This document shows positions 3,621 through 64,000 of a stretch of DNA of 64,000 bases, piece by piece. Each line of letters opens with the position of its first letter. Position 1 is the stretch's first letter. Location of the stretch: contig NZ_JAMGSI010000001.1 in the NCBI RefSeq assembly GCF_023516715.1, positions 868,001 to 932,000 of the forward strand, written 5' to 3'. Position numbers and translations under genes: made by a program. This DNA is from Akkermansia massiliensis. GTDB lineage: Bacteria > Verrucomicrobiota > Verrucomicrobiia > Verrucomicrobiales > Akkermansiaceae. The notes below the pieces were generated by a model. It did no database searches and was not told the origin of the DNA. It saw only the letters and a list, made by a program, of their open reading frames with translations.

Positions 3621-3684
3621 GGTATTAAATCATGAGAGTGCGCGGGAAAGGCGGGGAGGGGAGGGCTCCCAGGAGAGGGGGGGA

Positions 3685-46658: not shown

Positions 46659-47135
46659 ATGGAAAGATTGTATCGTCCCAATGTGGCGGGGCTGTTGGTC
46701 CGGGAGGACGGAAAGCTGCTGGTTTGCGAACGTTCCAGGCAGAAAGGGGCCTGGCAGTTCCCTCAGGGGGGGATTGATCCGGGAGAAACTGCCACGGAGG
46801 CAGTGAAGCGGGAAGTCCGGGAGGAAGTGGGGTTCCTGCCGTCCCAGTATGATGTTGTGGAATCCCGGGGCGGCTATCGTTACGATTATCCGCCGGAGGT
46901 GCTGGAGTATGTCCGCGAAAAGCGGCAGCAGCCTTTTGTGGGGCAGGAGCAGGAGTATTTCCTGTGCCGGCTGCGTGCGGACGCTCCGGAGCCCAGCCTG
47001 GACCACCGGGAGTTCTGCGCCTACAGGTGGATAGCCCCGGCCCGGTTCAGGCTGGAGTGGCTGCCGGAGTTCAAGAAGGAGGTGTACGCCAGGGTGCTGG
47101 CGGATTTCTTCAATGTCCGGGCACGGGATAAGTGA
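46659..47135 (+). CDS. RppH-like Nudix RNA pyrophosphohydrolase
   Basis: 158 residues. The Nudix box is GGIDPGETATEAVKREVREEVG preceded by RQKGAWQFPQ. Then SRGGYRYDYP, and QPFVGQEQEYFLCRLR, which matches RppH (the KxxxG(Q)xQKWFLLR segment). It would remove pyrophosphate from mRNA 5' ends or hydrolyse dinucleoside polyphosphates. It ends 26 nt inside the 3' end of the convergent meaB gene, so the two transcripts overlap antisense. Confidence 0.85.
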   Translation: MERLYRPNVAGLLVREDGKLLVCERSRQKGAWQFPQGGIDPGETATEAVKREVREEVGFLPSQYDVVESRGGYRYDYPPEVLEYVREKRQQPFVGQEQEYFLCRLRADAPEPSLDHREFCAYRWIAPARFRLEWLPEFKKEVYARVLADFFNVRARDK

Positions 47136-49627: not shown

Positions 49628-49694
49628 GACGGAGGGCTTTTTCAGAAGAGATTCTATCATGGAGAATCAGGAGTGATAAGGAAAAACGGCGGAA

Positions 49695-51176
49695 TTACTT
49701 TTTGTTTTCCCACCGGAAGGGTGGCTCATTGTCCTTCGTGCGTTTCAAGTCGTAATTAAAGCGCTTGAGGACAAAGGGGCGGTGGTCGGCCACTTTCCTC
49801 TGGAAGTTTTCCCAGGAACGCACCTCCATGGGAGACCATCCCGCTTCCGCCAGGGCCATGGCGCGGGGATAGACGCGGTAAAGCAGGTGGTTCAGGTCCG
49901 GAAGGTGTTCCGCCCACACGGGAGCGTGCACGCCCCGGATGTGGCCTGCTTCCGCGGTGGATTTGCCGAAGGCCGGATCCAGTTCATAACATTTCTGCAA
50001 GGTCGTGGTTTGCATCCATCCCCAGTTGTATTGTCCCGGGAATTGAGGGAAATCCAGATAACAATATTCATTGGATGCCATAATCAGGTTCAGCCCGGCC
50101 TTTTTTGTTTTCTCAATGGCTTGGCGCGCCTGGTCCTGCCGCCACGCGTAAACTGTTTCGCCCGGGTGGTAGATGTCGGCGTTCCCTTCATACCAGAATT
50201 GCGGCGTTTGCCCGTTTTTGTCGAGCAGGGCTGTCATTTTGGCGAAGAAAGCCCTCATTTGTTCCTGTTCGTCTTTCATGCCTGCCTTGGTCCGGGCTTC
50301 CCGGCACAGGGGGCATTTTTTCCAGAGTTCCGTGGGGGCTTCGTCGCCGCCCAGGTGAACGGTATTGGACGGGAAGATGTCCTTGAGTTCCTTGAAGACG
50401 GCGGCGTAGAATTTCCAGACCTCCGGCTTCTGGGGACATACCAGTTCCTTGCTGTTGCCGGCCACTGTCCGTACCTTCATGTCCGGTTTGGGGAAGCAGA
50501 AGAATTCGGGGTAGGCGGCGGCCAACGCCTGGTTGTGGCCCGGCACGTCTATCTCCGGGATGACTTCAATGCCGCGCGCCGCACAGTAGGCCACCAGGTC
50601 TTTCAGCTCCTGTCTGGTGTACATTCCTTCATGGGGAATGCCGTCTCCGAAGCTTTCCTCCCGCTTGGAGGCGACGCTTTTCAGTCTGGGATAGCCCGGC
50701 ACGGGCAGGCGCCAGCCCTGGTTGTCCGTCAGGTGCACATGGAGCTTGTTGAATTTGTAGTAGGCCATCAGGTCCACGAATTTCTTCAGGTCCTTGATGG
50801 GGATGAAGTGGCGGGCGGGGTCCACCATCATGCCGCGCCACGGGTAGCGCGGCTTGTCCGTGATGACGCCGCAGGGGATGCCCTCCGGCTGTGCCGCCAG
50901 CTGGTCCTGGAGCTGCTGGAGGGTGACCAGGCCGTACATCCTGCCCTCCCTGCCGCCGGAGGCAAGGTGGACGCCCTGCGGGGTGACGGCGAGGCGGTAG
51001 GCGTCCTTGCCCAGGGCAGGAGAGGTTTTGTCGGAGAGGAGCTTCAAGGTCCTGGTGGCGTTCCGCTTCAGCTCCGTTTTCTCCGGCTCCGGAATAATGC
51101 TGTATTTTTCTGCTGCTTCAGTTTGAAATACCGGGAACAGCAGCAATCCGGCCAGGAGTGGAAAAAGCCTTGTCAT
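49695..51176 (-). CDS. Secreted GH20 beta-N-acetylhexosaminidase (copy B)
   Basis: 493 residues from ATG 51176 (MTRLFPLLAGLLLFPVFQTE signal); the frame runs up to 51236. Same layout as copy A: GMMVDPARHFIPIKDLKKFV, DNQGWRLPVPGYPRL, EVIPEIDVPGHNQALA, and Asp278-Glu279 in VHLGGDEAPTE. It has a CPLCREARTKAG loop after the catalytic residues where copy A reads CPLSVKYRQQKG. Copies differ most after the catalytic Glu (about residues 285-400), which may alter substrate choice. Copy B is 5' and ends 67 nt before copy A begins. Confidence 0.94.
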   Translation of the reverse strand: MTRLFPLLAGLLLFPVFQTEAAEKYSIIPEPEKTELKRNATRTLKLLSDKTSPALGKDAYRLAVTPQGVHLASGGREGRMYGLVTLQQLQDQLAAQPEGIPCGVITDKPRYPWRGMMVDPARHFIPIKDLKKFVDLMAYYKFNKLHVHLTDNQGWRLPVPGYPRLKSVASKREESFGDGIPHEGMYTRQELKDLVAYCAARGIEVIPEIDVPGHNQALAAAYPEFFCFPKPDMKVRTVAGNSKELVCPQKPEVWKFYAAVFKELKDIFPSNTVHLGGDEAPTELWKKCPLCREARTKAGMKDEQEQMRAFFAKMTALLDKNGQTPQFWYEGNADIYHPGETVYAWRQDQARQAIEKTKKAGLNLIMASNEYCYLDFPQFPGQYNWGWMQTTTLQKCYELDPAFGKSTAEAGHIRGVHAPVWAEHLPDLNHLLYRVYPRAMALAEAGWSPMEVRSWENFQRKVADHRPFVLKRFNYDLKRTKDNEPPFRWENKK

Positions 51177-52057
51177 GTTTTCAGTATAAGCCGTGCCGGG
51201 AGAGAATCTTTCAAAAATTTGCTCCTTCATGAGCACGCGGCGGAATATGCTTCATGCCCGCTGAAAGGATATGGTGGACCCTTTGACAAAATGTTTCTCA
51301 GGAATTACCGGGGCTGGCATCCCGGCGGTCCGGACACAAGTTCCTTTCAGGGAAAGAGGAAGGGCCGGAAAGAGGGAAGGCCTTTTGTCTTTTTCCCATG
51401 GTCCGTCTGGCGCTGTTAGCGGCTATTTGACCGTTTTTCCAGGTCCGGGAATATTCCCTTACGGTTGAGGATGGAGAAAATGTGCATTTGCGTTCTTACT
51501 GTCCGTGTCCTCAGATCAACAGAAGGATTATTTGGAAAGGTGCCGTCCACGCTTTGAAGGGCTCCGCAGTTGCTGGAAAGTTCCGGACTTTTTCCTGGTC
51601 CAGAGGAACGTTAAAAGTAAAAAAGACCGCCTCCGGAGAGACGGCCTTTTTCTTAAAGGTGGTAGCCCTATGAGGACTTATAGCATTTATATACAATGAT
51701 ATATTTTTTAGTGTGTTCATAATTGTGATAATGTTGAGCACATGAGAGGGGATAACGATTGCGTGATATACTGGACACGCAGAGAGCGGGAGAACTGCAA
51801 TGTAGTCCATTGGTGGGGGATATGGGGGAATGTCATTAAAGCGGTGCATAATGGGCCGGAATGAGCTGGAAATAGACCGAAAAAGGGAGTCTCCTTGAGC
51901 TTGGAGCCCCGAACTGGGTCATGGGTCATCTGTGTTTTTGCATGCATGGAGTTGAAAAATTTCATGCAACTATTCCAACAATGCAACGGGAAAAGTATAG
52001 GTTCAGGTGAAAGCCTGCGTGTCTTCCGTAGAGGAAACGCAACGGGGCCGCATTTGT
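51177..52057. other. Gene-poor stretch at the host-prophage junction
   Basis: About 880 bases between the GH20 gene and the first recognisable phage gene. It holds a terminator-like hairpin (51619-51652) and, further right, AT-rich DNA (51670-51745) followed by a 40-codon frame at 51742-51864 that I do not trust. The prophage edge probably lies here but I cannot point to an attachment site. No terminase remnant is recognisable. Confidence 0.5.
51619..51652. terminator. Terminator-like hairpin upstream of the prophage block
   Basis: AAAAAAGACCGCCTCC pairs imperfectly with GGAGAGACGGCCTTTTT; A-run on one side and T-run on the other, so it could act in both directions. Confidence 0.6.
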
Positions 52058-52336
52058 ATGTTACGGATTGCAAAAGCTCTTTATGCCTGGGGAGCGGTGG
52101 ACATTGATGAACGCATACCCCGTTTGAAAGAAGCTTTGGATAAGGCTGTTGAAGATATCATTGAAAACCAGGGAAAGGAAATCACTCAAGGGAACGTGGG
52201 GGACAGTTCATTCCAGTTCGCGCCAGGTTCCATGACTATTGATTTATGGGTGGAAGCTTTGGGGATGGCTATTCGTTCTCTTGAGCATGGCCGGTTTGAA
52301 GGAGGGAATAACGTTGCAAGGATAGTGTTTCGATGA
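52058..52336 (+). CDS. gpW-like phage head-tail joining protein
   Basis: 92 residues from ATG 52058 (MLRIAKALYAWGAVDIDERI); a longer frame begins at 52007. It has an N-terminal helix, a short polar turn (GKEITQGNVGDSSFQFAPGS) and a C-terminal helix (IDLWVEALGMAIRSLEHGRF), the helix-hairpin-helix pattern of lambda gpW. Its stop overlaps the portal start (52333), and it holds the gpW position. Assignment rests on position and pattern rather than on sequence identity. Confidence 0.5.
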   Translation: MLRIAKALYAWGAVDIDERIPRLKEALDKAVEDIIENQGKEITQGNVGDSSFQFAPGSMTIDLWVEALGMAIRSLEHGRFEGGNNVARIVFR

Positions 52337-53733
52337 AAGCAGGAAATGTCCAGATTTTGGATCAGTTCGGCCGGCCGTTTTCAAGCCGCCCCATTTACAA
52401 GAGCGGCAGTTATGATGACGGGCTGCAGCGGCTTCCGAATTATCTCAAAGAACCGGAACAGCTTTCCGGGAGTCTTACCCGGAAGAACCTTATTTCCGCG
52501 TCCCGTCTGTTGTACAAGAACAACGGCGTTGTAAAAGGTGCCGTGAACATGAAGGCTGAATACTCTATCGGGAAAGCGTTTCTGTTCAAATCTCTGTGCA
52601 AGAATCCGGAAGTTGCGGCGAAGTATGACGAGTACATCAAGGCGTTTTACAAAGTTGCATGCGTGAACGGAAAGAATTTTCACTCGCTCCTGTATCTGAT
52701 CTCCACCGCCATCGACATTGATGGGGATTGCTTTGTAATGTTGACGGAAAGCAAGACGGGGTTTCCTCAACTGCAATTTATCCGGGCAAACCGTGTTTGC
52801 TCTCCTAAAAATGGCCTTATTGACTCTGGAAAATATAAGGGATTGAACGTGCTGCACGGCGTCATAACCAATCGCATGGGACGTGAAATCGCTTATTGGC
52901 TGGACGGCGACGAACCAGGGGGAGGTGAAATCATCCCGGCATCCTCAATACTTCATATCGTGGATGACGACTTTCTTTCCTCCTGCCGGGGCGAGCCTCT
53001 CTTCTCTCATGGCCTCAAGGAATTCCGATACATTGATGATATCAATACAGCCGAACTTGGGGCCATGAAGATTGCGTCACAAATTGCCCTGGTAAAAAAG
53101 AACGAAACGGGAGAAGTTGACATAACGCAGGCTTATGCCAAACCGTCCAATAATGGGGAGGTGCTCATCCGGAATACTGGTGATAAGCAAATTGTATTTT
53201 TGAAGTCTGAAGATTCCCTTGACTCCCTGAAGATTGAGCGCCCCTCTCCGAACTACATGAGTTTTTCAGAACGGCTTCTGAAGGGCGTTTTATCCGGGGT
53301 GGGTGTGCCCTATGATATCGTGGTCAATCCGGATTCAAGCGGCGTTGGGAACAGAATGTCTCTGTCCAAATTTGACAATACCACGCGAGATCGGGCCACG
53401 CTGCTTGAAGATGCTGCCAGACTGCTTGTACAGTATATCTTGGCCGTAGGTATCCAGCGGGAGGACATCCCGCACGCGGAAGGCTGGTGGAACATGATGT
53501 TCAGCCGCGCCAAGCGTCCAAGCGTAGACATGGGCCGCGACTCCAACAGCCAATTGAAAGAGTACAATGCCGGTATTAAAAACCTCACAGAAATCTGTGA
53601 GGAAAACGGAACGCAGGTTGAGGACCATTTGAGAATACGTGCCAGGGAAGCCGCCATTGCGGAGAAGTTGCGCCGTGAAGCTGAAGCAGAATTTGGAGTA
53701 GAAATCTCTCCGGATTATATCAGGAAGTTTTAA
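52333..53733 (+). CDS. Phage portal protein (lambda gpB type)
   Basis: 466 residues. The portal core is visible: RKNLISASRLLYKNNGVVKG-AVNMKAEYSIGKAF, STAIDIDGDCFVMLTES, QLQFIRANRVCSPKNG, ILHIVDDDFLSSCRGEPLFS, and a C-terminal charged tail. This matches the lambda-family portal. Twelve copies would form the ring through which DNA enters and leaves the head. It overlaps the gpW-like gene by 4 nt and is followed 1 nt later by the protease gene. Confidence 0.88.
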   Translation: MKAGNVQILDQFGRPFSSRPIYKSGSYDDGLQRLPNYLKEPEQLSGSLTRKNLISASRLLYKNNGVVKGAVNMKAEYSIGKAFLFKSLCKNPEVAAKYDEYIKAFYKVACVNGKNFHSLLYLISTAIDIDGDCFVMLTESKTGFPQLQFIRANRVCSPKNGLIDSGKYKGLNVLHGVITNRMGREIAYWLDGDEPGGGEIIPASSILHIVDDDFLSSCRGEPLFSHGLKEFRYIDDINTAELGAMKIASQIALVKKNETGEVDITQAYAKPSNNGEVLIRNTGDKQIVFLKSEDSLDSLKIERPSPNYMSFSERLLKGVLSGVGVPYDIVVNPDSSGVGNRMSLSKFDNTTRDRATLLEDAARLLVQYILAVGIQREDIPHAEGWWNMMFSRAKRPSVDMGRDSNSQLKEYNAGIKNLTEICEENGTQVEDHLRIRAREAAIAEKLRREAEAEFGVEISPDYIRKF

Positions 53734-53734
53734 T

Positions 53735-54481
53735 GTGATGAAACCGTTATATTGTGAAGAAACTGCATGGCTGACGAAGATTCGCCAGCGGAAGAGCCTG
53801 GAACCGAAAGCCGCAGGGAATCCGGATTTTGACTTCTCATTTTTCATCCAGACACGCCAAAAAGCGCGGGTAATTGGGTCATCCTTGGTGATTGACGTGA
53901 TTGGGCCTCTATACGGTGACGGCGTGCCGTTGAATGAAGTCCTGGGCGGCACGAATTATCAGTCCATCGTGAAGGAAATAAAGGGTGCTGCCGGGAACAT
54001 TGATGAAGTTGTTTTCATTTTTGACTCTCCGGGAGGTGACGTGCAAGGCTGTCATGAAACAGCAGAATTGATTAAATCTCTGCCAGTGGAAACAGTGGCT
54101 TATGTCAAAGGCATGTGCTGCTCTGCCGCCTATTATTTGGCTTCCGCTTGTGATCAAGTGGTCGTGACGGAAACGGCGCTGGTTGGCAGTATCGGGACGG
54201 TCATCAGCCTGTGGAATGCCAAGAGTGAGGAAATATTGACCATCACGAATGATGATGCTGTTTTCAAGCATCCGGAAACCCCGATGAATACGGAGGCAAT
54301 CGCCTATTACAGGGATTTGTGCAACAAGATCGCCGGGCGGTTTCAGGAATTTGTGGCTTCAGGACGTCCCGGTTTATCTGCGGATGCGTTTTCCGGCAAG
54401 GTTTTTGTGGCGGAAGATGCTGTTTCCCTAGGCCTGATTGATGATGTAATACCCTGGGTCGATTTTCCTGGAGTGGTATGA
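53735..54481 (+). CDS. Phage prohead protease (S49/ClpP-like, lambda gpC type)
   Basis: 248 residues. SppA-type core: VVFIFDSPGGDVQGCHETAE (oxyanion region), GMCCSAAYYLASACDQVVVT (nucleophile Ser in CCSAAYY), ETALVGSIGTVISLWN, then FSGKVFVAEDAVSLGLIDDV. It would cut scaffold during head maturation. In lambda the same position carries the C/Nu3 nested genes; the small coiled-coil protein downstream here is separate. Confidence 0.86.
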   Translation: MMKPLYCEETAWLTKIRQRKSLEPKAAGNPDFDFSFFIQTRQKARVIGSSLVIDVIGPLYGDGVPLNEVLGGTNYQSIVKEIKGAAGNIDEVVFIFDSPGGDVQGCHETAELIKSLPVETVAYVKGMCCSAAYYLASACDQVVVTETALVGSIGTVISLWNAKSEEILTITNDDAVFKHPETPMNTEAIAYYRDLCNKIAGRFQEFVASGRPGLSADAFSGKVFVAEDAVSLGLIDDVIPWVDFPGVV

Positions 54482-54505
54482 AAACGCAACGGTTTTGCCA
54501 TAAGT

Positions 54506-54895
54506 ATGGCACTATTCAAGTCTGATCAAAATATCGTTGATGCGCTCAAACAAGAGCTTGCCTCTTTTGGGGCAGAAATAAAGGATGGGATTAAAGAAAT
54601 CCAATCCTCTATTAAAGCTCTTTGTGAGCGTGTCGAAGCCCTGGAAAAGGAGAATGTCAAGCTCCACGCATCCGTTGCCCTCAAGAAAAACCAGCTTGAG
54701 GAAGAAGCCGATACGAAGGCGAGCCAGAAGGCCGCTGAAATGGTGGCTGGTATGGGACATAAAGCCGTAGTGGATAAGCCGGAAGACGGTGAAGAAAACT
54801 CCTCTATCCTGGAGCAGTACTCAGCTCTTTCCGGAGAGGAACAGAGGAAGTTTTATGCTGCTCATAAGGATGAGTTGGTAAAACTTTGCAAGTAA
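54506..54895 (+). CDS. Phage scaffold-like coiled-coil protein
   Basis: 129 residues starting MALFKSDQNIVDALKQELAS. A long Lys/Glu-rich coiled coil (about residues 5-70) leads into a charged C-terminal part with SGEEQRKFYAAHKDELVKLC. It lies between protease and capsid, where scaffolding or head-decoration proteins are found. No family recognised; scaffolding is inferred. Confidence 0.6.
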   Translation: MALFKSDQNIVDALKQELASFGAEIKDGIKEIQSSIKALCERVEALEKENVKLHASVALKKNQLEEEADTKASQKAAEMVAGMGHKAVVDKPEDGEENSSILEQYSALSGEEQRKFYAAHKDELVKLCK

Positions 54896-54935
54896 TCAAT
54901 AACAATATTAACGATTAAAACCATTTTTTAGAATT

Positions 54936-55772
54936 ATGGCTCTTTCAGATGCTCACAAGATAGTTATTCACAGTGAAGTCATTTCTTCTTTGCGTAAGGC
55001 TCTGGCTCCGCTGGAATACTTTAAGAAGGATTTCCGAATGGAGTATGCTTCCGAGATTAAATTCAAGAATGTAAAAGCCGCCGGAAATATTACTGAAAAC
55101 CCTTCTGATTACCAGATGGATAAAGAAAATGAAGGGGATTTAATCCCCCTGTCACTTACTGAACTCCATCAACCCTGGCGCATTACGCCCGCCGAAAAGC
55201 GGAATGGGTGGAAATTGGCGGATTTGGCAAAAACGAACGCTACGGCGTTTGCCAATAACTTGAACAAGCGCATACTTTCCCTTGTTACAGCGGATGGAGC
55301 CAAGGTTATCGGTACGGCTGACGCTTTCACAAAGCGTAAGTGCATCAACCTCAGCGGAGACGTAGAATCCGACGAACCTCGCCTTTTGCTGGCGCCTGAT
55401 TATTACCGAGCTATTCTTCCGGAAAATACGACGGAATTCCGGCTTGATGGAGGCGCTTACGGATTTGATTCCATCCATAAGGTCAAGACCTCCGTCTTTG
55501 CTGATAACGTAGTCGGTATTTCCTATGATGGAGGTGCGGTTGCTGTTGGTTCCGCCCTTCCGGAGATCGACGAGGCTTTCAAGGATGATATCCATTCCGA
55601 GGTCATTCAGGTGGAAGGTCTTGCTGGTCTTTCTATCCTGTTTTGCACTTGGCTTGATTTGAAAACTCGCGCGGAATGGGCTTCTCTGGGCCTGATGTTC
55701 GGGGCAAAGATTCTCGAGGCTGACAAGGTGAAAGGATACGTTGCCGCTGCTGTTGCGTCAGATGAAGGCTGA
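54936..55772 (+). CDS. Phage major capsid protein
   Basis: 278 residues. It lies directly after protease and coiled-coil gene. It has an N-terminal helical region (HKIVIHSEVISSLRKALAPL), an E-loop-like segment (ENPSDYQMDKENEGDLIPLS) and a globular part with LLLAPDYYRAILPENTTEFR. No identity to a named capsid is claimed; size and position fit an HK97-fold capsid of a small siphophage. A strong terminator follows at 55800, unusual within a morphogenesis operon. Confidence 0.7.
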   Translation: MALSDAHKIVIHSEVISSLRKALAPLEYFKKDFRMEYASEIKFKNVKAAGNITENPSDYQMDKENEGDLIPLSLTELHQPWRITPAEKRNGWKLADLAKTNATAFANNLNKRILSLVTADGAKVIGTADAFTKRKCINLSGDVESDEPRLLLAPDYYRAILPENTTEFRLDGGAYGFDSIHKVKTSVFADNVVGISYDGGAVAVGSALPEIDEAFKDDIHSEVIQVEGLAGLSILFCTWLDLKTRAEWASLGLMFGAKILEADKVKGYVAAAVASDEG

Positions 55773-55799
55773 TTTTCTTTGTATTCATGCTGGTGTTTA

Positions 55800-55829
55800 C
55801 CGTCCCGGATTTGTCCGGGGCGGTTTTTT
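55800..55829 (+). terminator. Terminator after the capsid gene
   Basis: CCGTCCCGGA-TTTG-TCCGGGGCGG (10 bp with one T-G pair) followed by TTTTTT. It sits between capsid and connector genes. Confidence 0.88.
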
Positions 55830-55850
55830 GTGCAACGCACCGCCATTTGT

Positions 55851-56150
55851 ATGAGATTCACAGAGGCTGCCAACGTTGCTCACCGGAGTATTAACCGGGT
55901 ATTGCCACAGACAGAAATTGTCTACAATGGCCAGACGTACCGGGGGTACATGAATTCCCGGGACATAACCATTGAACGCCAGGAAGGAGGGTATTGCAAC
56001 CAGCGGGACCGCATCATTCACATCCAGACAGGGGACGCTTTTCAGATTGGGGGGCGTGTGGGGTGCGAAGGGATGAAATTCAAGATTACCGCCGTCACAA
56101 GTAATTGTGTTTACAAGGTATTAACTTTATCAGCCGATTTATATGAGTAG
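55851..56150 (+). CDS. Phage head-tail connector (gpFII-position)
   Basis: 99 residues from ATG 55851 (MRFTEAANVAHRSINRVLPQ). It is a small beta-rich protein with VYNGQTYRGYMNSRDITIER and IHIQTGDAFQIGGRVGCEGM. Position after capsid and before a gpZ-like gene suggests a head completion/tail attachment protein like lambda gpFII. The next gene overlaps its end by 8 nt. Confidence 0.55.
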   Translation: MRFTEAANVAHRSINRVLPQTEIVYNGQTYRGYMNSRDITIERQEGGYCNQRDRIIHIQTGDAFQIGGRVGCEGMKFKITAVTSNCVYKVLTLSADLYE

Positions 56151-56898
56151 CATGGAAGTCCGGATAGATGTGAAAGGAATGGATAGCGCCTTGAAAAAGG
56201 CGAAAACGAATATTGAGCGTTTCGGAAATTTATATACTACGTTGCTTGCCTACAATACCGCTAGCGGGATGTGCTTTAACGCCACTCTTCCGCTGGGAAA
56301 AAATCGCAAATCAAAGGTTTCCGGAAGAAAATCCGGGGAAGGGGCTGTCAGCCGGGACGTTTCCCGCGCCGGGCGCGGTGTTGGATCGTTTATCAACCAA
56401 CTAAAGGAAAGAGACATAAAAAGGGCAAGACAGGTTGCCGGCATGCTTTCTTTAAAGGCAGATCCTCAAAAGGCTGCCGAAGTGGCGACGGATGTTTTTG
56501 GGCAGGTTGTGCGCTTTTATCAGAGTTACAGCCCGGAATTTCATACTTCTGCCCGGAAGAATGGTCGTGTGTCCTCCTTTACTGGGAATGTCGTGCTCAA
56601 TAGAAAGAGTACGGAGAACTATAAGAATAAGGTATTCAAGCATATCGGGAAGGCAAAATCAGGGTGGCTGATTAATACTTCTTATGGATGGGCTGCTCGT
56701 GCGCCTCAATGGATTGCGCGGCATGGGAAAAACGGGACAATCAAGAAGTTGCCTGATGGAGGTATCGAAATTGAAAATAATCTGTCTTATGCCTCGGAGG
56801 CTATGCTTAAGGCGCTTGTACCGTTTGTCCAAACCAAGGCATTGCAGGCCACGAACTTGAAATTGCACCATGAGTGGCAAAGGAGAAACAGGGTATGA
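56143..56898 (+). CDS. Phage tail-completion protein (gpZ/gp10-like)
   Basis: 251 residues. It begins MSSMEVRIDVKGMDSALKKA, a pattern common in HK97-gp10/gpZ proteins (V-G-x-x-x-A-L-x-x). Basic middle (KNRKSKVSGRKSGEGAVSR) and SGWLINTSYGWAARAPQWIA near the end. Stop overlaps the next start (ATGA). Confidence 0.6.
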   Translation: MSSMEVRIDVKGMDSALKKAKTNIERFGNLYTTLLAYNTASGMCFNATLPLGKNRKSKVSGRKSGEGAVSRDVSRAGRGVGSFINQLKERDIKRARQVAGMLSLKADPQKAAEVATDVFGQVVRFYQSYSPEFHTSARKNGRVSSFTGNVVLNRKSTENYKNKVFKHIGKAKSGWLINTSYGWAARAPQWIARHGKNGTIKKLPDGGIEIENNLSYASEAMLKALVPFVQTKALQATNLKLHHEWQRRNRV

Positions 56899-57230
56899 TT
56901 ATGGATCGTGTCATCAGTCATTTGAGGAATTCCGGGTTTACTGTCTACAAAGCCGGGAGTAACAGCGACATAGAACGGAAGCCCTGCGTCGTCATAGGCA
57001 TGGCCGGGTATACTCAGCCTTGGGCGCCTTTGCCCGCCAGGGAATATACGCTTTCCATGATTCTGATCAATAACCGGTCTGATTCGGAAATGGAAAGAAC
57101 CCTTGTGGAGACGTTATTCCGGCTGGATTGTGGTGAACAGTGTGATTTTTTCAATATTACGGATTATTCGGCTACGCTGGATGATGATGACTGGGTAACT
57201 ACTTGGACATTGCGTTATATTGAAAGATAG
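56895..57230 (+). CDS. Phage tail terminator-like protein (gpU-position)
   Basis: 111 residues from ATG 56895, chosen because it overlaps the preceding TGA (ATGA). MIMDRVISHLRNSGFTVYKA then REYTLSMILINNRSDSEMER. Small alpha/beta protein preceding the tail-tube gene, the gpU position of lambda. Sequence identity to gpU is not claimed. Confidence 0.55.
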   Translation: MIMDRVISHLRNSGFTVYKAGSNSDIERKPCVVIGMAGYTQPWAPLPAREYTLSMILINNRSDSEMERTLVETLFRLDCGEQCDFFNITDYSATLDDDDWVTTWTLRYIER

Positions 57231-57285
57231 TTTTATACTATTTTGATAATCAATCTAATATATAAAATTTATCCGTAGAAATATA

Positions 57286-57314
57286 TTGCAAAAAGATACG
57301 GATTTCTGTATTAT
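57286..57314 (+). promoter_or_regulatory. Strong sigma-70-type promoter inside the tail operon
   Basis: TTGCAA (57286-57291), exactly 17 nt, TATTAT (57309-57314). It lies in AT-rich DNA and starts a short transcript at about 57321. The first transcribed bases form the hairpin CCGGG-TTGGT-CCCGG (57322-57336). Confidence 0.7.
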
Positions 57315-57358
57315 GCACGTGCCGGGTTGGTCCCGGATTAAAAAAGGAGGTGTAATAT

Positions 57359-57418
57359 GTGAGACAACAGGAACTAATACAACGGTTGATTGAACTTCTG
57401 ATAGTTCTGTTCAACTAA
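57359..57418 (+). CDS. 19-residue micro-peptide MRQQELIQRLIELLIVLFN
   Basis: GTG-started ORF of 19 codons ending TAA. The Shine-Dalgarno AAGGAGG (57344-57350) is the best in the window, 8 nt before the GTG. An overlapping ATG (57357) is followed at once by TGA, a start-stop. The peptide is amphipathic: polar MRQQELIQR followed by hydrophobic LIELLIVLF. It has its own promoter (57286) and terminator (57424). It may be a membrane-active micro-peptide, a leader peptide for attenuation, or a translated small RNA. Its first bases and the ELI stretch echo the start of the tail-tube gene 114 nt downstream. Confidence 0.55.
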   Translation: MRQQELIQRLIELLIVLFN

Positions 57419-57423
57419 AGGAA

Positions 57424-57460
57424 AAACCCCTCGGAGCAGCCACTCCGGGGGGTTTGATTT
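57424..57460 (+). terminator. Terminator of the micro-gene, upstream of the tail-tube gene
   Basis: AAACCCC-T-CGGAG pairs with CTCCG-G-GGGGTTT (13 bp with one T-G) around CAGCCA, followed by TTTGATTT. It ends the micro-gene transcript or attenuates transcription into the tail-tube gene. Confidence 0.88.
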
Positions 57461-57472
57461 AGAGGTGAACAT

Positions 57473-58015
57473 GTGAATTGTTCGGAACTAATACGCCTTC
57501 AATATGCCTCATTCTGCGATTTTGTCAAGCGGGAAATGGTGGTGGAGCAGCCGGAAGCGCAACGCACGGCCATTTGTATGGCAAAAGCATCTGATTTTAT
57601 CCAGCACGGAGAAGGTATTTTCGGGCTCAATTATTCCGGTGAACAGGAATTCGGAGCAATCATTTCTTCCGTTAGTTATTCATGGTCGGCCAAAGGTGAT
57701 GTAGAACTTACTGGGGACAAGGGATTGATGGAGGGGAACACGCTTTATGATTCCCGCTGTGAAATTACCTGGGAAGCCTATATGAGAAAGACTGGCACGG
57801 AAGTGCCCCACATTGGCGATATTGTTGATGTGCATGCTGATGTCTTGAATCTCTGCATCAAGAATTCCGGTGAAGAAATTCCGGCAAAGGTGACTAAGGC
57901 CATTTGCAAGAGCGTGGATGTGAAGATGGAGACGCAGAATTATAGGAGTTTCACGGTTAAAGCTACTTATGGTCCTAATATCGTTGCTCTGAATCCGGAT
58001 ATTGCTTCCGAATGA
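57473..58015 (+). CDS. Phage major tail tube protein
   Basis: 180 residues from GTG 57473, with GAGG 7 nt upstream; an ATG at 57536 is an alternative. It contains GIFGLNYSGEQEFGAIISSV, SWSAKGDVELTGDKGLMEGN and KMETQNYRSFTVKATYGPNI. Position (after gpU-like, before chaperones and tape measure) and size match a siphophage tube protein. Initiation shares ATGTGA and GGAACTAATAC with the micro-gene upstream. A GC-rich hairpin follows its stop at 58025. Confidence 0.72.
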   Translation: MNCSELIRLQYASFCDFVKREMVVEQPEAQRTAICMAKASDFIQHGEGIFGLNYSGEQEFGAIISSVSYSWSAKGDVELTGDKGLMEGNTLYDSRCEITWEAYMRKTGTEVPHIGDIVDVHADVLNLCIKNSGEEIPAKVTKAICKSVDVKMETQNYRSFTVKATYGPNIVALNPDIASE

Positions 58016-58024
58016 CAAATTTAA

Positions 58025-58049
58025 GGGGAGGTGAGCTTCACGCCTCCCC
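58025..58049 (+). terminator. GC-rich hairpin after the tail-tube gene
   Basis: GGGGAGG at 58025-58031 pairs with CCTCCCC at 58043-58049 (7 bp) around TGAGCTTCACG. No T-run follows, so it may stabilise the 3' end or attenuate weakly. Confidence 0.5.
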
Positions 58050-58084
58050 TCCCCTCAAACAAAAAATAATATAATAGACAGAAC

Positions 58085-58459
58085 ATGAATAATATAATCA
58101 ATATTGAAGATATTAATCTCGCCAGCGCTTTGCTCGCTGCTACAGCCCCTATCGCCAAGCGGGCGGAGATAATCATTACAGACCGGGGAGAACGGAAGGT
58201 TTTTTATTTTACGGATACCCTGGAGACGCGGGAAATGATCAGGAAGTGGAAGGATCCTGATTTTGTGAAGAACAATCCGGAAGATCCGTTTGCCCTGGTC
58301 AAGGCGGCCTTTGATTGCCGCCGCGGCATTCTGTCTGGCCTTTCCCGATTCCGGAAAATAGCCTGTATCCGTTCCAGGGATGGGGAGAAGGTCGCCTTAA
58401 TTCCGGAGAATTGTCCGGAAGAGGATAAAATGGAAATCATGGGGCGTTTGAACTCTTGA
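58085..58459 (+). CDS. Phage tail protein of unknown function
   Basis: 124 residues. It begins MNNIINIEDINLASALLAAT and has RKVFYFTDTLETREMIRKWK, DPFALVKAAFDCRRGILSGL. No family recognised. It lies between tube and chaperone genes and may itself be a chaperone or a DUF-type tail protein. Confidence 0.6.
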   Translation: MNNIINIEDINLASALLAATAPIAKRAEIIITDRGERKVFYFTDTLETREMIRKWKDPDFVKNNPEDPFALVKAAFDCRRGILSGLSRFRKIACIRSRDGEKVALIPENCPEEDKMEIMGRLNS

Positions 58460-58469
58460 GTGTTGGAAT

Positions 58470-58853
58470 ATGATGAAAGATGAGGAAAAAGCCTTGAAGC
58501 TCCGTCCCCTGTCTATTGGGAGCATGGAGCTGATGCAGCGGTTTAACTGTGGATTCATGGACGGGAGCATGAATCTGGGCTGCATTGTGGAATATATTTA
58601 TATTCATACGGAGGATATTGAAACGCTTGAGTCCATGAGCCTTGATGCGTTTAAGGAAGCCGTCCGAAGATTCAAATATGAATTAAGCCCTGATGAAATG
58701 CAGCGTATTTCATCCCTGGTAGGTATGCAGGCGCAGCAGGTTGATGAAGCCGCTTTTACTGTTGAGGACTCCAAAAAAAAACGGGAGGGGACAGGCCGGA
58801 CTATTTTATCCAGGTGGTTTGGGCGATTGCGTCGAAAACGGGCTATCCCTTAA
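58470..58853 (+). CDS. Tail assembly chaperone (gpG-type), zero-frame product
   Basis: 127 residues, starting MMKDEEKALKLRPLSIGSME and FNCGFMDGSMNLGCIVEYIY. Near the end the codons TCC AAA AAA AAA CGG (58770-58784) include an A9 run. After that the zero frame gives a basic tail (GRTILSRWFGRLRRKRAIP) that looks unlike real coding sequence. It is the G protein of a G/GT pair that chaperones the tape measure. Confidence 0.75.
   Translation: MMKDEEKALKLRPLSIGSMELMQRFNCGFMDGSMNLGCIVEYIYIHTEDIETLESMSLDAFKEAVRRFKYELSPDEMQRISSLVGMQAQQVDEAAFTVEDSKKKREGTGRTILSRWFGRLRRKRAIP
58773..58781 (+). promoter_or_regulatory. A9 slippery site for -1 programmed frameshift
   Basis: Nine A residues in frame as AAA AAA AAA. 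Slippage by -1 leads into an open frame that runs to 59020. The A AAA AAA heptamer is a known class of bacterial slippery sequence. Confidence 0.72.
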
Positions 58854-59020
58854 ATTACATTAAATATGATATTCCCTACAGCATGATCCTGCAGTTCCTA
58901 ATGAGCGAATGTGTTGCAAATGGCGTAAGCTGTTATTACACCCATGCCCGGAAGGTGGATCATGCTGATTTGGAGCGTTTGGACGCTCTGTTTAACAAGC
59001 CTGTTGATGTTGAAGAATGA
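58781..59020 (+). CDS. Frameshift extension (T part) of the tail chaperone G-T
   Basis: Open frame -1 relative to the G gene. From the slippery site it reads TGGDRPDYFIQVVWAIASKT then GYPLNYIKYDIPYSMILQFL, MSECVANGVSCYYTHARKVD and the end DALFNKPVDVEE. It has a good ATG only at 58814 and no Shine-Dalgarno there, so it is probably made as a fusion of 104 G residues and 79 T residues (183 in total). Its stop overlaps the tape-measure start by 4 nt. In lambda the GT protein binds the tape measure through T. Confidence 0.72.
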   Translation, partial: TGGDRPDYFIQVVWAIASKTGYPLNYIKYDIPYSMILQFLMSECVANGVSCYYTHARKVDHADLERLDALFNKPVDVEE

Positions 59021-61170
59021 GTGCCGTAAAGTTTAAATTCTCCGGAGATTCTTCGGAATTGCTCAAAGAACTGGAGAACATTAAGGAAAAGATCCGCGAG
59101 ACCTCGGGGCAGGCGGCAAATATGCGTGTTGCTAAGGGCGGTAAGGCTGACGTAGAGGGATTGGGGGCGTCTTTCAAGAAGTTATTGCCTGCAATTACGG
59201 CTGCCGGCGCTGCCGCGGCAGGATTTGGGGCGGCATGGAGCGCTGTCAAAACAGGAATCAATGACGCGATGGATGATGAATACATGGCGGTACAGTTATC
59301 TTCCTATACAAAAAATATTGAGTCGGCCAGGGATTTGCAGTCCCAGCTTGATCATCTGGCGGCAAATGGCGTTGTTAGCCTGGACGATTTAGGGAAAGCC
59401 GCTCAAAACCTGGCCATGCATTTTCGGACAAATAATACGGCTATCATGAGCTGGTCGGAAGTTTTTGCAGATATTGCCGCGTCCGGAAAGATTTCTGCAG
59501 AGCAGCTTTCCAATTCATGGGCGAAGGTGATGGCAAACGGATTTGCCGACTCACGGGCCATTAACCAGCTGCAGAATCAGGGCATTCCCATTATCAAGGC
59601 TTTGGCGGAAGAAATGGGCGTGGCGGAAAGACAGGTTGTTGAGCTCGCCAAGAAGCGGGAAATTTCCGCTGATCAGTACGTGAACGCCATGAAGAGAATG
59701 CGTGACGCGGAATTTTCCGGGAAGAATTCCGCATTGTCTAATACGACCATCGGTTCATGGGAAACGCTCAAGGCTACTTTTGAAAATGCTATGGGGGATC
59801 TGATGAGTGATAAAGTACTCAACTTGGCAGATTCTTTTCAAGTTTTAACGGCAAAGATAGAAGCTGCTTCTGCAGCTAATTTCAGGTTTTATTCTGTAAA
59901 TGAAAAAAATCTTTCTTCCTCGGAAAAGGTAGTAGGGGGATTTCAATATATAATTGAGCAGTATATTCATTCTATTAGAGCTATCCGAGACGGGCGGGAT
60001 TGGAAGGAGAGTATTGCAGATGTGAACGAGTATGAGATGAGGTTAAAAAAGCTTTCTGAATTTTCACAACCTTTTGAGGCTTCATTAGACGCTGTTACTA
60101 CTGCAAAAAGCAGGGAAGATATTGATGCTGTCTTAGAACAGTTGGAAAGTGAAAGAAAAGAGCTTGTGAATCAAATTGGAGCAGCTCAACGTTATCTTTC
60201 TGCTACGGGAGGAAAAGGGAAGCATGGAGGTCAAGAAGTCGGAGAGAGAATAGAAGCATTGAAAGAAGAATTGACCCTCAGAGATGACTTACTTTATCAA
60301 ATCAGAAGAGGGGTTATTTTACTTGGCGACGAGGAGGATGCCATTGATGAAATTATTGAAAAAAACAGAAAGGAGGCAAAAGCTACAGCAGATTTGAGTG
60401 ATGCAATAGATAAGCTTAATGCCGCAAGGGATAAAGTACATAAGCAGAAGCCAAAAAAGAAACAAGATGATTTATCAGTCGATGGTCTAAAGAAACAGCT
60501 TGAAGACGAATTAGCCGCTGTTCAACATATTTCCTTGGATGATTTGGAAGAGGAATTGAAATTACTTGAAAAAGAATTCCAAGCAGGAGCTTTAGATTTT
60601 AATGCAGCCACGAGATATGAAAAGCTGTTATCCGTGGCTGACTCCATCCGGGAAATTAACGCTCAATTAAATAAAAAGAACAGAGCCGTTAATGATTTGA
60701 GACAGGATGCGCAGGAAGAAATTGCCATCATGCAGGCCGAGCTCGCTGGGGAAAAGGAGAAGCTGCGTGAGCTTGAAAAGCAGCGGGATGTGCGGAAGGA
60801 AATGCAATCCCTCGTGAAAAGCGGCATGAATGAGCATGACGCCCTGGGGCTGGCGGAACAGAAGGTTTCTCTGACATACAAGATTGAGGACAAAAGGGAA
60901 AGGGAGAAAAAGGAAAAAGAGGATTCCAGGGCGCGGGCGCAGGAAATATCCGATGCGTTTAAAACACGGTTTGACGCAGTACAGCAGACGCTTTCAAGCG
61001 TATCCCGTGTGGGGTCTGGTTTCGGTTCCCTCTTTAGCCTGGTGGGAAAGGGGGATGCCGGCCTTTCCGCTGCCGTGGACTCCCTCACAAAGGAAGTGCA
61101 GACTTCCAACGGATACCTCAGGACGATTGCGGAAAAGGCCGAGAAAGGCGGTGTTGCCCTCTTTAGCTGA
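59017..61170 (+). CDS. Phage tape measure protein
   Basis: 717 residues. N-terminus MSAVKFKFSGDSSELLKELE, then a hydrophobic Ala/Gly stretch (LPAITAAGAAAAGFGAAWSA), and the tape-measure domain LDDLGKAAQNLAMHF, ISAEQLSNSWAKVMANGFAD, GIPIIKALAEEMGVAERQVV. The long C-terminal part is coiled coil (LAGEKEKLRELEKQRDVRKE). The middle (about 59880-60660) is noticeably AT-richer than both ends, pointing to mosaic exchange. Length predicts a tail on the order of 100 nm by the usual rule of 1.5 angstrom per residue. Confidence 0.9.
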   Translation: MSAVKFKFSGDSSELLKELENIKEKIRETSGQAANMRVAKGGKADVEGLGASFKKLLPAITAAGAAAAGFGAAWSAVKTGINDAMDDEYMAVQLSSYTKNIESARDLQSQLDHLAANGVVSLDDLGKAAQNLAMHFRTNNTAIMSWSEVFADIAASGKISAEQLSNSWAKVMANGFADSRAINQLQNQGIPIIKALAEEMGVAERQVVELAKKREISADQYVNAMKRMRDAEFSGKNSALSNTTIGSWETLKATFENAMGDLMSDKVLNLADSFQVLTAKIEAASAANFRFYSVNEKNLSSSEKVVGGFQYIIEQYIHSIRAIRDGRDWKESIADVNEYEMRLKKLSEFSQPFEASLDAVTTAKSREDIDAVLEQLESERKELVNQIGAAQRYLSATGGKGKHGGQEVGERIEALKEELTLRDDLLYQIRRGVILLGDEEDAIDEIIEKNRKEAKATADLSDAIDKLNAARDKVHKQKPKKKQDDLSVDGLKKQLEDELAAVQHISLDDLEEELKLLEKEFQAGALDFNAATRYEKLLSVADSIREINAQLNKKNRAVNDLRQDAQEEIAIMQAELAGEKEKLRELEKQRDVRKEMQSLVKSGMNEHDALGLAEQKVSLTYKIEDKREREKKEKEDSRARAQEISDAFKTRFDAVQQTLSSVSRVGSGFGSLFSLVGKGDAGLSAAVDSLTKEVQTSNGYLRTIAEKAEKGGVALFS

Positions 61171-61171
61171 C

Positions 61172-61948
61172 ATGAACAAGGATATTAAACACACAGGCGG
61201 GTACGGATGGCAAGGCGATTTTGATGCGTCCATGTCTGATGATGGGGCATGGTCGGCAAGTGTTTCTTACGTGGCGCCCCCTGGGGAAAAATTCACGCCT
61301 CCTTACACCCTGCATTGCCATGTTCCCGGTTTTACGGATTTGATCTTATCCAACTATGAGCACTCGCAGATTGCTGACTTGTGGAAAACGGTCTGTACCT
61401 TCAAAAAAGAAGCCCCTCAAGAAGATGATCCGGATAATCCAGACCCGGACCCTGATGACCCGGACCCCTTTGATTTTGACCCCAAGGATACAAAAACCAC
61501 TTGGGAATTTACGGCTGGCGTAACGAGCAAGAGCATTTTTGACCACCCGGATTTCAAGCCCATGTTTCAGAACAATCCGGACCTGCGGAAAGCCTATGAA
61601 GCGATCATGTCGGGCCGTGTGGATATTGAATCCCTGAAAATTGACTCCAAGCTGAAAAGGAAAGACCCGTATGATTTCGGCCTGGGGGGCGTGAAGTACT
61701 CAAAGGAACTTTCTGACCTGTTCAACAAAGTAATAAATAAAGGAATAACTGACTACTATAAAAGGTGTTGTTCCTATTCTATCACGACCACGGAAGGGAA
61801 GGGCCCGGATGCCGCCCTTCAGTCATTGATTTCCGCGGGCGGTGGCAATTTTGTGAAGATGGGAGAGGATAACAACCCCTACGGGAGAAAGACGGAAACC
61901 ACGCAATCTTTTTCCCAGGTTTTGGAAGAAGGCGTTTTGATTATTTGA
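61172..61948 (+). CDS. Phage tail-tip protein with Asp-Pro linker (unknown)
   Basis: 258 residues from ATG 61172, 1 nt after the tape-measure stop. MNKDIKHTGGYGWQGDFDAS then FTDLILSNYEHSQIADLWKT, followed by an Asp-Pro-rich linker (DDPDNPDPDPDDPDPFDFDP) and a C-terminal domain with LKRKDPYDFGLGGVKYSKEL. No family recognised; position fits a distal-tail or minor tail protein. Ends adjacent to the next ATG. Confidence 0.6.
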   Translation: MNKDIKHTGGYGWQGDFDASMSDDGAWSASVSYVAPPGEKFTPPYTLHCHVPGFTDLILSNYEHSQIADLWKTVCTFKKEAPQEDDPDNPDPDPDDPDPFDFDPKDTKTTWEFTAGVTSKSIFDHPDFKPMFQNNPDLRKAYEAIMSGRVDIESLKIDSKLKRKDPYDFGLGGVKYSKELSDLFNKVINKGITDYYKRCCSYSITTTEGKGPDAALQSLISAGGGNFVKMGEDNNPYGRKTETTQSFSQVLEEGVLII

Positions 61949-62794
61949 ATGATGACCTGGACAAACGATTTACGAATCAGGGCGGACGTTGCGCCGAGTG
62001 CTGCTAGCCAGCAGGGCGCTGTAGCGTACAGAGTCAACCGCACCGTTTCACAATCCCAAATTGTACCCATTGCAGGGTTCCAGCGCCCCAAGTGGGCGGC
62101 CATGGCGACCAATCCCAATGCCCCCGGCATGATGGCGACGGGTTACAAGATCGCCTTGCATTCCGCAACGCATTACAAGGTGACGGTAACGTACTCTTAC
62201 CCGTCCGGAGATACCAATGAGGATGAAGACGGCAACCCCATCAATCCAGACAACCCGGATAATCCCGACGACGCGAAGGAAAAGTACAAGGTCAAGATCA
62301 GCGACCGCTCGAACATGACGCTTGAGCCCATATTGAGCTATTACAAGTTGCGGGACACGAACGGGAACAATAAATATTCAGAGGATGATATGAGAACTCT
62401 GGCCGTTTACCTGTCCGGGGGGCTTGTCTTGTGCAGCAACGGCCAGTACCGGCTTAAATGCGAGAAAGACGAAACGCCGGGGCATATTCAACTCCCCGTT
62501 ACCCCGATTACCCCATATATCACACTCGGTTACAAAAAAATTTCGCAGAACAATACGGTCATCACGAAAACCTATACAGCGCGCCGCGTGGATCCGTCCA
62601 AGGTGGAGCGCGTGGGAAAGATTGTCCAGGGCAGCGAGTTTGGAGGCGCAACGGAAGTACAAGGGTATAAGCTCAATTATCTCTTTACCCGGTACTCCAT
62701 CCACAAGGTAGGTAACAGGGAATACGAGATCACGGAAGAATATACGCAATCCAATCCCGGAGGCTGGTCAACGGACCTATACAAAAATGGATAA
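61949..62794 (+). CDS. Phage tail-tip protein (unknown)
   Basis: 281 residues starting MMTWTNDLRIRADVAPSAAS, immediately after the previous stop. It has a second Asp-Pro-rich linker (DGNPINPDNPDNPDDAKEKY) and beta-rich parts (IQLPVTPITPYITLGYKKIS). No recognised family. Its end overlaps the next start (62787). Confidence 0.6.
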   Translation: MMTWTNDLRIRADVAPSAASQQGAVAYRVNRTVSQSQIVPIAGFQRPKWAAMATNPNAPGMMATGYKIALHSATHYKVTVTYSYPSGDTNEDEDGNPINPDNPDNPDDAKEKYKVKISDRSNMTLEPILSYYKLRDTNGNNKYSEDDMRTLAVYLSGGLVLCSNGQYRLKCEKDETPGHIQLPVTPITPYITLGYKKISQNNTVITKTYTARRVDPSKVERVGKIVQGSEFGGATEVQGYKLNYLFTRYSIHKVGNREYEITEEYTQSNPGGWSTDLYKNG

Positions 62795-64000
62795 CATCAC
62801 TAAGGGAGACCCTATCAAGGCGGATTGGGCCAACGCCCTTACAAACGCCCTCAATGCTGCTACGCATGGCAAAACGTCCATGCGCGGCGGTGGCGGCCAG
62901 AACGTTTCCATTGCCCCTTATCAGCGCGGTTCACGCCCCCTGGCCTTTGATTTGGTGGAAATCACGGATGACGCGGAGGCATCCCTTTCCGGCAAGGTCT
63001 CTGGAGGGCTCCTTTTGAATGCCTATAAAGAGGAACAAGATACTGATAATGAGGAAGAAAAGAAGATACTGCTGAAAAATGAAGATATAGAGATCAGCGA
63101 GTATGAAGCCTCTTTTAAGGCAGGGGAAAAAGTGTGGGTGCATGTTACGTATGACACGGACACCTGGGAGGCATATACCGCTATCCTGGAAAAGGGGAAT
63201 GAGGTTCCAGAGCCGGAAGACGGGGAAGCTTACATTGTCGTAGGTGAGTTTGAGGAACGTGATAAATCCATTATTTACAAGCACAAAGGCATTACCTTCA
63301 TCAACTGGGATGTAATCAAATGGGAATTCAAAAAATACAAGCTTAAGACGGACCCCTTATGCGCCTTGGAACTCAAGGAAGTCGAAGAGGAAAACGAACT
63401 GACACTAAACATTGAATCATCCAGCGAAGAAGAAAACATTGATGCTGATAGCAATCTGAAAGTGTGGCTTGTCCAGAAAAAGGGGAAAGGGCAGGGCGGC
63501 GCGGAGGAAGGGCCGGTTAGGCTTGGCGTGAGAATCAAGGATGAACGCCCCGACTATACGGGGCAAGACCCCATTGAAATCACCGGCAGGAGCGTATCTC
63601 TCAAGCTGGACCAAACGGAACATGAAACGTCCAACGGCATCAAGTACAAATTAACCAAGACGGGAGGACAGCTTGATATAAGCTTGAACGCGGATTCCTT
63701 GGCTGTTGGCGAGAATTTAAAATTTGAAAAACCATTGCGGAAAACCAGTAGTGGCTATGTCGTTTTTGATTACGACCGGAATTGGAGCGAGCCCGCAAAC
63801 GGGGTAAAGGCCCATTTTGTAATGGTGGGAGATGCGCTTTCCGTTGAACTCCATGCAGATACGACTAGCGACGGCTCCGACGGTCTTATCAGTGATTCAT
63901 GGACTGTGCTTGCGTGTGATAGTGATCACGCATTGCGTTTAAAGAGAAACGATAATGAAAAAATCTATATCCAACAAGGAGAATGGAATAAATCTTCAAA
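62787..64000 (+). CDS. Phage tail fibre/structural protein, partial
   Basis: Open from ATG 62787 to the right edge without a stop (at least 404 codons). It starts MDNITKGDPIKADWANALTN then ALNAATHGKTSMRGGGGQNV, a pattern common at the N-terminus of phage tail proteins that attach to the tip. Acidic, Lys/Glu-rich segments follow (YKEEQDTDNEEEKKILLKNE) and later beta-rich repeats. It probably continues as a long receptor-binding or structural protein. Confidence 0.7.
   Translation, partial: MDNITKGDPIKADWANALTNALNAATHGKTSMRGGGGQNVSIAPYQRGSRPLAFDLVEITDDAEASLSGKVSGGLLLNAYKEEQDTDNEEEKKILLKNEDIEISEYEASFKAGEKVWVHVTYDTDTWEAYTAILEKGNEVPEPEDGEAYIVVGEFEERDKSIIYKHKGITFINWDVIKWEFKKYKLKTDPLCALELKEVEEENELTLNIESSSEEENIDADSNLKVWLVQKKGKGQGGAEEGPVRLGVRIKDERPDYTGQDPIEITGRSVSLKLDQTEHETSNGIKYKLTKTGGQLDISLNADSLAVGENLKFEKPLRKTSSGYVVFDYDRNWSEPANGVKAHFVMVGDALSVELHADTTSDGSDGLISDSWTVLACDSDHALRLKRNDNEKIYIQQGEWNKSS

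Follow-up and report, generated by a model that had tools for sequence, protein, structure and literature searches.

A probable type I toxin-antitoxin module with a par-like layout and an unrelated peptide in a prophage region of Akkermansia

A micro-gene in a prophage region of Akkermansia massiliensis forms one half of a unit that is very probably a type I toxin-antitoxin (TA) module, arranged like par (Fst) but with an unrelated peptide. The unit occupies positions 57286-57528 of the window, by which we mean the whole 64,000-nucleotide (nt) stretch analysed here (assembly GCF_023516715.1, contig NZ_JAMGSI010000001.1, positions 868,001 to 932,000). Its transcription, RNA pairing and toxicity are what we infer from the sequence, which offers conserved promoter motifs, a covarying shared hairpin, class-specific matching of repeats, conservation of the coding region, and loss of the toxin with the antitoxin kept. 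A sequence-only reading of the window had described a self-contained micro-gene. Its parts do all lie within 57286-57460, but the unit runs on to 57528 by way of the opposite strand, and that reading overlooked the antisense half (57423-57528), the direct repeats and an AUG-UGA start-stop. By comparison with its relatives, the micro-gene is real and conserved, yet only half of the unit. With the antisense gene and direct repeats in view, the earlier comparison of the peptide to small membrane-active peptides or type I toxins is a good fit.

In the mechanism that we propose, promoter P1 would drive RNA I (~140 nt), coding for a small hydrophobic peptide that is the presumed toxin, and promoter P2 on the opposite strand would drive RNA II (~70 nt), ending at the shared hairpin. 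RNA I, capped by a 5' hairpin, would outlive RNA II. If the prophage were lost, the antitoxin would decay, the peptide would be made and the cell would suffer; by such post-segregational killing the module would stabilise its carrier. The general hallmark of type I systems, a small hydrophobic peptide gene beside a predicted antisense RNA gene, was found in silico. So were convergent promoters, a shared bidirectional terminator, repeats that provide complementarity and a 5' helix at the predicted RNA I start, all of which characterise par/Fst. Two further par/Fst features were missing from the window: a stem sequestering the Shine-Dalgarno (SD) sequence and a YUNR U-turn in the terminator loop (CAGCCA, by eye). 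The PXXXG(C) hydrophobic domain and charged C-terminal tail of Fst/Ldr toxins were also absent, the peptides ending in N or S. Because this motif is lacking, we file the locus as a type I TA module with a par-like layout rather than as a member of the Fst/Ldr toxin family.

The direct repeats link the two halves. Repeat DR1 (57347-57380, + strand) spans the SD, the start-stop and the first toxin codons, and is the target of the predicted antitoxin RNA. The minus-strand copy of repeat DR2 (57462-57494) is the 5' part of predicted RNA II. Since the direct repeats lie either side of the terminator, the sequence of predicted RNA II complements the ribosome-binding site of the micro-open reading frame (micro-ORF) and its start. 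The repeat sequence divides the elements into eight classes, A-H, with the window in class A. DR1 and DR2 match inside each class and differ across classes, and the peptide changes in its N-terminal half together with the repeat class. When RNA I and RNA II of the eight classes were paired by duplex energy, with RNA II termini placed manually for classes A, B and H, the true assignment was the unique best of 40,320 (sum -286.8 kcal/mol), and the cognate partner was best in six of the eight rows and in every column. An alignment test on hand-cut repeat strings, confined to the specificity parts beyond the start codon, also gave the true assignment as unique best, with the cognate partner best in all eight rows. 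In a seven-class version of the repeat test the true assignment ranked 1 of 5,040 and the cognate partner was best in 6 of 7 rows.

The antisense half would be transcribed from P2 (57501-57528, minus strand), which consists of TTGACA (57528-57523), a 16-nt spacer and CATATT (57506-57501). It was the top-scoring promoter-like site (10/12) in a scan of 50000-64000, and it reads back into the shared terminator hairpin. A TTGAC(A/T) hexamer 16 nt from a -10-like site was present at this position in 18/18 distinct toxin-bearing sequence versions, none of which had a toxin without P2. A promoter regular expression used alongside the repeat test fixed the 16-nt spacing and the permitted letters. Hexamer identities obtained with it are therefore partly built in, and we rested conservation of P2 on free-spacing scans and a pattern-free alignment. 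With free spacing (an earlier scan covered 15 loci), P2 was the sole best site in 11 of the 18 versions and tied for best in 7, two of these ties (loci L016 and L017) involving the same -35 with a shifted -10. Aligning the eight class representatives without any pattern showed the -35 and most of the -10 to be near-invariant, unlike the spacer. The predicted RNA II (57423-57494, minus strand, ~72 nt) folded with a z-score of -4.20.

The constancy of P2 also bears on the idea that the downstream repeat is a second ORF, so that the locus would encode two small peptides, a bacteriocin- or lysis-like pair with no antisense gene. DR2 does run into an open frame in the window, and a 108-nt coding sequence (CDS) annotated in Akkermansia phage Moulinsart starts near DR2. 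However, past DR2 the reading frame and its length are not the same from class to class (by eye), while the minus-strand promoter is constant and DR2 tracks DR1. A second small ORF at DR2 was rejected because the frames vary between classes and the antisense promoter does not, which leaves the two-peptide reading extremely unlikely.

Between the repeats of the proposed TA module lies the shared bidirectional terminator hairpin (57424-57455, both strands), with a 13-bp stem on the plus strand and the loop CAGCCA. The sequence-only reading had called this terminator perfect; the stem is there, but the epithet overstates it, as the plus-strand U-tract is modest (UUUGAUUU). A terminator scan listed a minus-strand site at the hairpin and none on the plus strand, and the U-run after the hairpin is good on the minus strand. 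Two hairpins of the unit covary on the plus strand: 6 of 16 pairs were changed on both sides with 100% of cells paired, and 0 of 500 shuffles scored as high (seven relatives, window row left out). The covariance model R1 was built without the rows of the window, L013 and L008, in which terminator or leader was misaligned. As a separate observation, some terminator loops are exact reverse complements of one another (CTTCAC/GTGAAG in L016 and L017; CTGGAA/TTCCAG in L004 and L020), and the terminator hairpin seems to have been flipped in two classes.

On the toxin side, the promoter described earlier is present as P1 (57286-57314, + strand), with -35 TTGCAA at 57286-57291, a 17-nt spacer, -10 TATTAT at 57309-57314 and 9/12 consensus matches. 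Promoter-like sites in 50000-64000 were not in excess of shuffles (16 versus 16.9), so the case for P1 rests on its presence in relatives, where a -35/-10 pair is recognisable at this position (by eye), and not on its score. The SD AAGGAGGTG (57344-57352, + strand), identified by sequence match, exists as claimed; its billing as the strongest in the window has to be shared with a second exact copy at 47076. Neither the promoter count nor a 9-nt SD proves anything by itself, given that shuffles match the former and a second copy of the latter exists; it is the relatives that carry the proof. According to the accessible text of PMC4782308, Akkermansia transcription start sites show a -35 sequence bias and a TATAAT-like box.

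From the position of P1, RNA I is predicted to start at ~57321 and to be ~140 nt long. The predicted fold of 57321-57465 was better than that of shuffles (z -2.87). The transcript would begin with the 5'-terminal hairpin CCGGG-UUGGU-CCCGG (57322-57336, + strand), found as earlier reported. One pair of its stem swaps from G-C to C-G among relatives with pairing retained, and its pentaloop (57327-57331) is UUGRU in 8/8 classes (by eye). Rather than substitutions destroying both ORF and hairpins, the outcome named beforehand as contrary to the micro-gene, relatives retain both. Two candidate elements were dropped: the UUGRU loop as a target of RNA II, its complement being present in class A RNA II and absent from B and D (by eye), and an inverted repeat around the window -35, which is not retained in L013.

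The 19-codon ORF reported earlier, MRQQELIQRLIELLIVLFN, was found at 57359-57418 (+ strand), running from a GTG start inside ATGTGA to the stop TAA at 57416-57418. All classes but B share a C-terminal core, RLIELLIV(L/M)F(N/S). Over 11 codons of this core in 10 sequences (the eight classes plus two variants), pairwise differences comprised 185 synonymous and 107 nonsynonymous changes (pN/pS 0.20), and variable columns by codon position numbered 6, 2 and 9 of 11. Both patterns are the mark of a selected coding sequence.

The toxin frame is preceded by a start-stop mini-ORF, AUG-UGA (57357-57362, + strand), whose AUG has a spacing of 14 nt to the 16S 3' end when the SD is aligned as in PMC9841429 and an E. 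coli-type 16S 3' end is assumed. An AUG at the optimal spacing of 13-14 nt opens a one- or two-codon ORF in 8/8 classes: AUG-UGA in A, B, C, D and F, AUG-UAA in G, and AUG-ACU-UGA in E and H. In all eight, the stop codon overlaps the toxin start or lies directly against it. That start is GUG at spacing 16 in five classes, UUG at 18 in E and H, and AUG at 20 in G, the last by reading of the sequence, as the script gave position 14, in frame with the mini-ORF AUG. In E. coli, as described in the accessible text of PMC9841429, AUGUGA at spacing 14/16 initiates almost solely at AUG, and the GUG frame is then strongly dependent on RF2, i.e., on termination and restart, most strongly at 14/16. By analogy, the arrangement suggests that the toxin start is reached by termination-reinitiation, wherein a ribosome would start at AUG, stop at once at UGA and restart at the overlapping GUG. 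In this frame, the AUGUGA restart mechanism examined in E. coli reporters has a candidate case in nature.

Comparison among genomes revealed loss of the toxin with retention of the antitoxin. The class C site is intact in the host genome (G000) and in G007, G008 and G009. In G010 its toxin is deleted, and P2, repeat and terminator are retained; in G004, G005 and G006 the same flanks lie ~105-140 nt apart with no module. G010 contains a second toxin-less remnant, of class F, in which the -10 looks decayed (by eye); L043 and L053 are its two toxin-less loci. A stop falls inside the toxin ORF of L022, and its antitoxin is intact. L013 (5060-5180), L014 and L015 each carry a class G antitoxin unit, with terminator, repeat and promoter and without toxin, behind a full class A module, an arrangement that reads as a tandem antitoxin array. 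The window P2 and downstream DNA resemble the class G unit of L013 (94 of 113 aligned positions) and not its class A unit (39 of 62). On this resemblance, the window itself may be a collapsed array.

These losses weigh on whether the peptide is toxic at all. The same antisense circuit could instead regulate a small peptide with a physiological role, e.g., in lysis timing or exclusion of other phages. Toxicity is only presumed, modules of classes D and E lie directly behind an endolysin gene, that of class B lies behind an endolysin-like remnant, and copies occur at chromosomal-looking sites. Toxin loss with antitoxin retention is nonetheless what a toxic product predicts, and we consider a physiological peptide unlikely. 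Extending the TA reading, we tentatively suggest an RNA-silenced toxin family of Verrucomicrobiota phages. The repeats might be interchangeable specificity tags, coexisting modules diverging until every antitoxin acts on its own toxin; the toxin might be translated only by start-stop restart; and the orphan antitoxins of G010 and the L013-L015 array might be retained by hosts and prophages for immunity against addiction by rival phages.

The window region bearing the module is a prophage or prophage remnant, in which 3 of 10 neighbouring proteins matched PHROGs (portal, head maturation protease and tape measure). A tail-gene homologue follows the module directly in the window and in L013-L017. 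A 230-aa endolysin homologue, 94-96% identical to that of Moulinsart, is upstream of the module in L004, L008, L018, L020 and L027, and in Moulinsart (L092) the module follows the annotated endolysin. In classes D and E (L004, L018, L020, L027, L008 and L092) it stands directly behind the endolysin homologue. The remnant before the class B module (L002) is endolysin-like (54% over 52 aa), and the class C module (L003, L005) lies between chromosomal-looking ORFs (by eye). This comparison spans classes A-E and G, leaving out the contexts of class F (L009) and class H (L093).

Such varied neighbours argue that the module is not part of the tail gene. They also count against the sequence-only reading's alternative of a leader-peptide attenuator, in which translation of the micro-ORF would set termination at the hairpin and hence the dose of tail-tube protein. 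That proposal draws on the position before the tail gene in the window and L013-L017, and on a plus-strand terminator that could be leaky. But the unit holds no constant position before a tail gene, since it also follows endolysin genes or their remnants and elsewhere sits among chromosomal-looking genes; it has its own promoter; and an attenuator offers no role for a conserved antisense promoter and class-specific repeats. We judge it very unlikely.

The 180-aa tail ORF downstream (57473-58015) opens within the antitoxin gene, and its homologues in L016 and L017 align only to residues 27-180. It is probably over-extended, ATG 57578 being the likelier start (by eye), and 57473-57577 (+ strand), which overlaps DR2 and P2, would be a probably spurious N-terminal extension. 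In the 2893-3868 stretch of Moulinsart, an annotated transcriptional repressor and "toxin" adjoin the module and are perhaps a protein-based TA pair, and two hypothetical CDS that overlap the module (2893-2982 and 3142-3249) are probably spurious. Elsewhere in the window, two adjacent and very similar minus-strand ORFs (48146-49660 and 49695-51236; 504 and 513 aa), which we take to be beta-hexosaminidase-like, look like a tandem duplication. Rfam, at its gathering threshold, matched the window only at a tRNA (36534), and no known RNA family was found at the module.

The toxin-core pattern, with one mismatch allowed, occurred at nine loci in 7 of 76 Akkermansia genomes, and a reversed control pattern had no match in the 76. 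Three of the nine loci are in the host genome, and its other two copies are 77% and 73% identical to the window copy. One search of the genus matched 16 of 76 genomes at E ≤ 0.01, against the seven counted as toxin-bearing and G010 with its remnants; another matched 8 of 76, G004 by 25 nt of flank only. In IMG/VR, the leader pattern matched 14 stretches and the core pattern 16, for 17 contigs together (including L022 with its interrupted ORF). Four stretches of a named-genome collection carried the module, as did a single record of a phage collection, Moulinsart (ON453896.1); a plasmid collection yielded no match.

Covariance-model searches of samples of the order and phylum matched 17 of 288 genomes (E ≤ 0.01) and 7 of 387 (E ≤ 1e-5), respectively, and strong full-length matches (>80 bits) all fell inside the genus. 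Sixteen loci below 45 bits were drawn for inspection, a set outside which L068-L070 lie. Matches were viewed at 14 of these, the slices for L046 and L047 having missed the match: L043 and L053 were the toxin-less remnants, and the other 12 resemble unrelated terminators. One module locus, L032 (JAJBVF010000317.1), comes from a metagenome-assembled genome titled Clostridiales. Over 3.1 kb it shares 99.3% identity with the host genome's class B locus, and it is probably a misbinned Akkermansia contig.

Several results weigh against the module as we interpret it. Pairing in silico is stronger between class C RNA I and class G RNA II (-33.8) than with its own partner (-29.8), and likewise between class H RNA I and class E RNA II (-34.0 versus -29.5); orthogonality is hence imperfect. 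Most classes have a weak plus-strand U-tract (by eye), so that RNA I might extend past the hairpin and its 3' end is uncertain, and an A-C mismatch occurs in the minus-strand terminator stems of classes A and B (by eye). Both predicted RNA I structures of the window leave the SD unpaired, whereas par of pAD1 sequesters it. The conserved stretch of the peptide is short if it is to span a membrane. Library searches, made with 20-aa forms of the peptide rather than the window's own 19-mer, found no related peptide: Pfam gave one weak match among three peptides (MotB_plug, E 0.053, below the cut-off), NCBIfam one among four (MotB, E 0.16) and PHROGs none among two, with no toxin model of Pfam or NCBIfam matched. 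The toxin core is missing from 69 of 76 genus genomes, and it is strange for an addiction module to lie inside a late operon, as it does in classes A and G. Finally, the module's transcript, translation and toxicity are predictions from sequence.

The module was recognised by the logic of its repeats, and looking for repeat pairs that flank a covarying terminator offers a search route for such modules that is independent of the toxin. The orphan antitoxins allow a direct test, in a gut commensal, of whether antitoxins are retained as protection from addiction. Among known systems, Ibs/Sib of E. coli combines a hydrophobic toxin of 18-19 aa with a silencing antisense RNA, Sib, that overlaps ibs directly. 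The Akkermansia module shares the very short hydrophobic peptide and the antisense RNA, but its antisense RNA would come from a second repeat beyond the terminator. In hok/sok, also governed by an antisense RNA antitoxin, toxin translation is coupled to an overlapping upstream frame, mok. That frame is a long ORF, while the one in Akkermansia has one or two codons, and layout and peptide differ as well.

Type I systems had previously come from Proteobacteria, Firmicutes and Tenericutes only, according to the accessible text of PMC12390103 (2025), which adds a cyanobacterial case and reports the view that the narrow phylum range reflects searches starting from known loci. For Akkermansia, the accessible text of PMC7354421 has type I toxin-antitoxin only in its reference list and one table. 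We found no type I system of Verrucomicrobiota in the open-access literature, an absence that we treat as provisional. The cyanobacterial module, msoT1/msoA1 of Microcystis, is likewise a type I-like proposal outside the classic phyla; the toxin 3' end and 3'-UTR are given as the binding site of its antisense RNA (PMC12390103), and that account, as far as accessible, presents no direct-repeat logic comparable to ours.

The closest likeness is to par of the Enterococcus plasmid pAD1, which in the accessible text of PMC7472228 has convergent promoters, a shared bidirectional terminator and oppositely read direct repeats. There, RNA II covers the SD and GUG start of Fst, the toxin mRNA has a 5' helix, phage and chromosomal copies occur, and Fst is placed in Firmicutes and Ldr in enterobacteria. 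The Akkermansia module has the same arrangement of promoters, terminator and repeats, a GUG start, a 5' helix, and presence in phage and chromosome. It differs in its peptide, which is unrelated, of 18-20 aa against 33 aa for Fst, and without PXXXG motif or charged tail. The window terminator loop lacks YUNR, which by the same source is not in the RNA I terminator loop of all homologues, and a YUNR-type loop caps the 5' hairpin instead. The Akkermansia module has no predicted SD-sequestering stem, and a start-stop mini-ORF comes before its toxin. The comparison suggests that the antisense direct-repeat circuit extends to a further phylum, where it is joined to an unrelated peptide.
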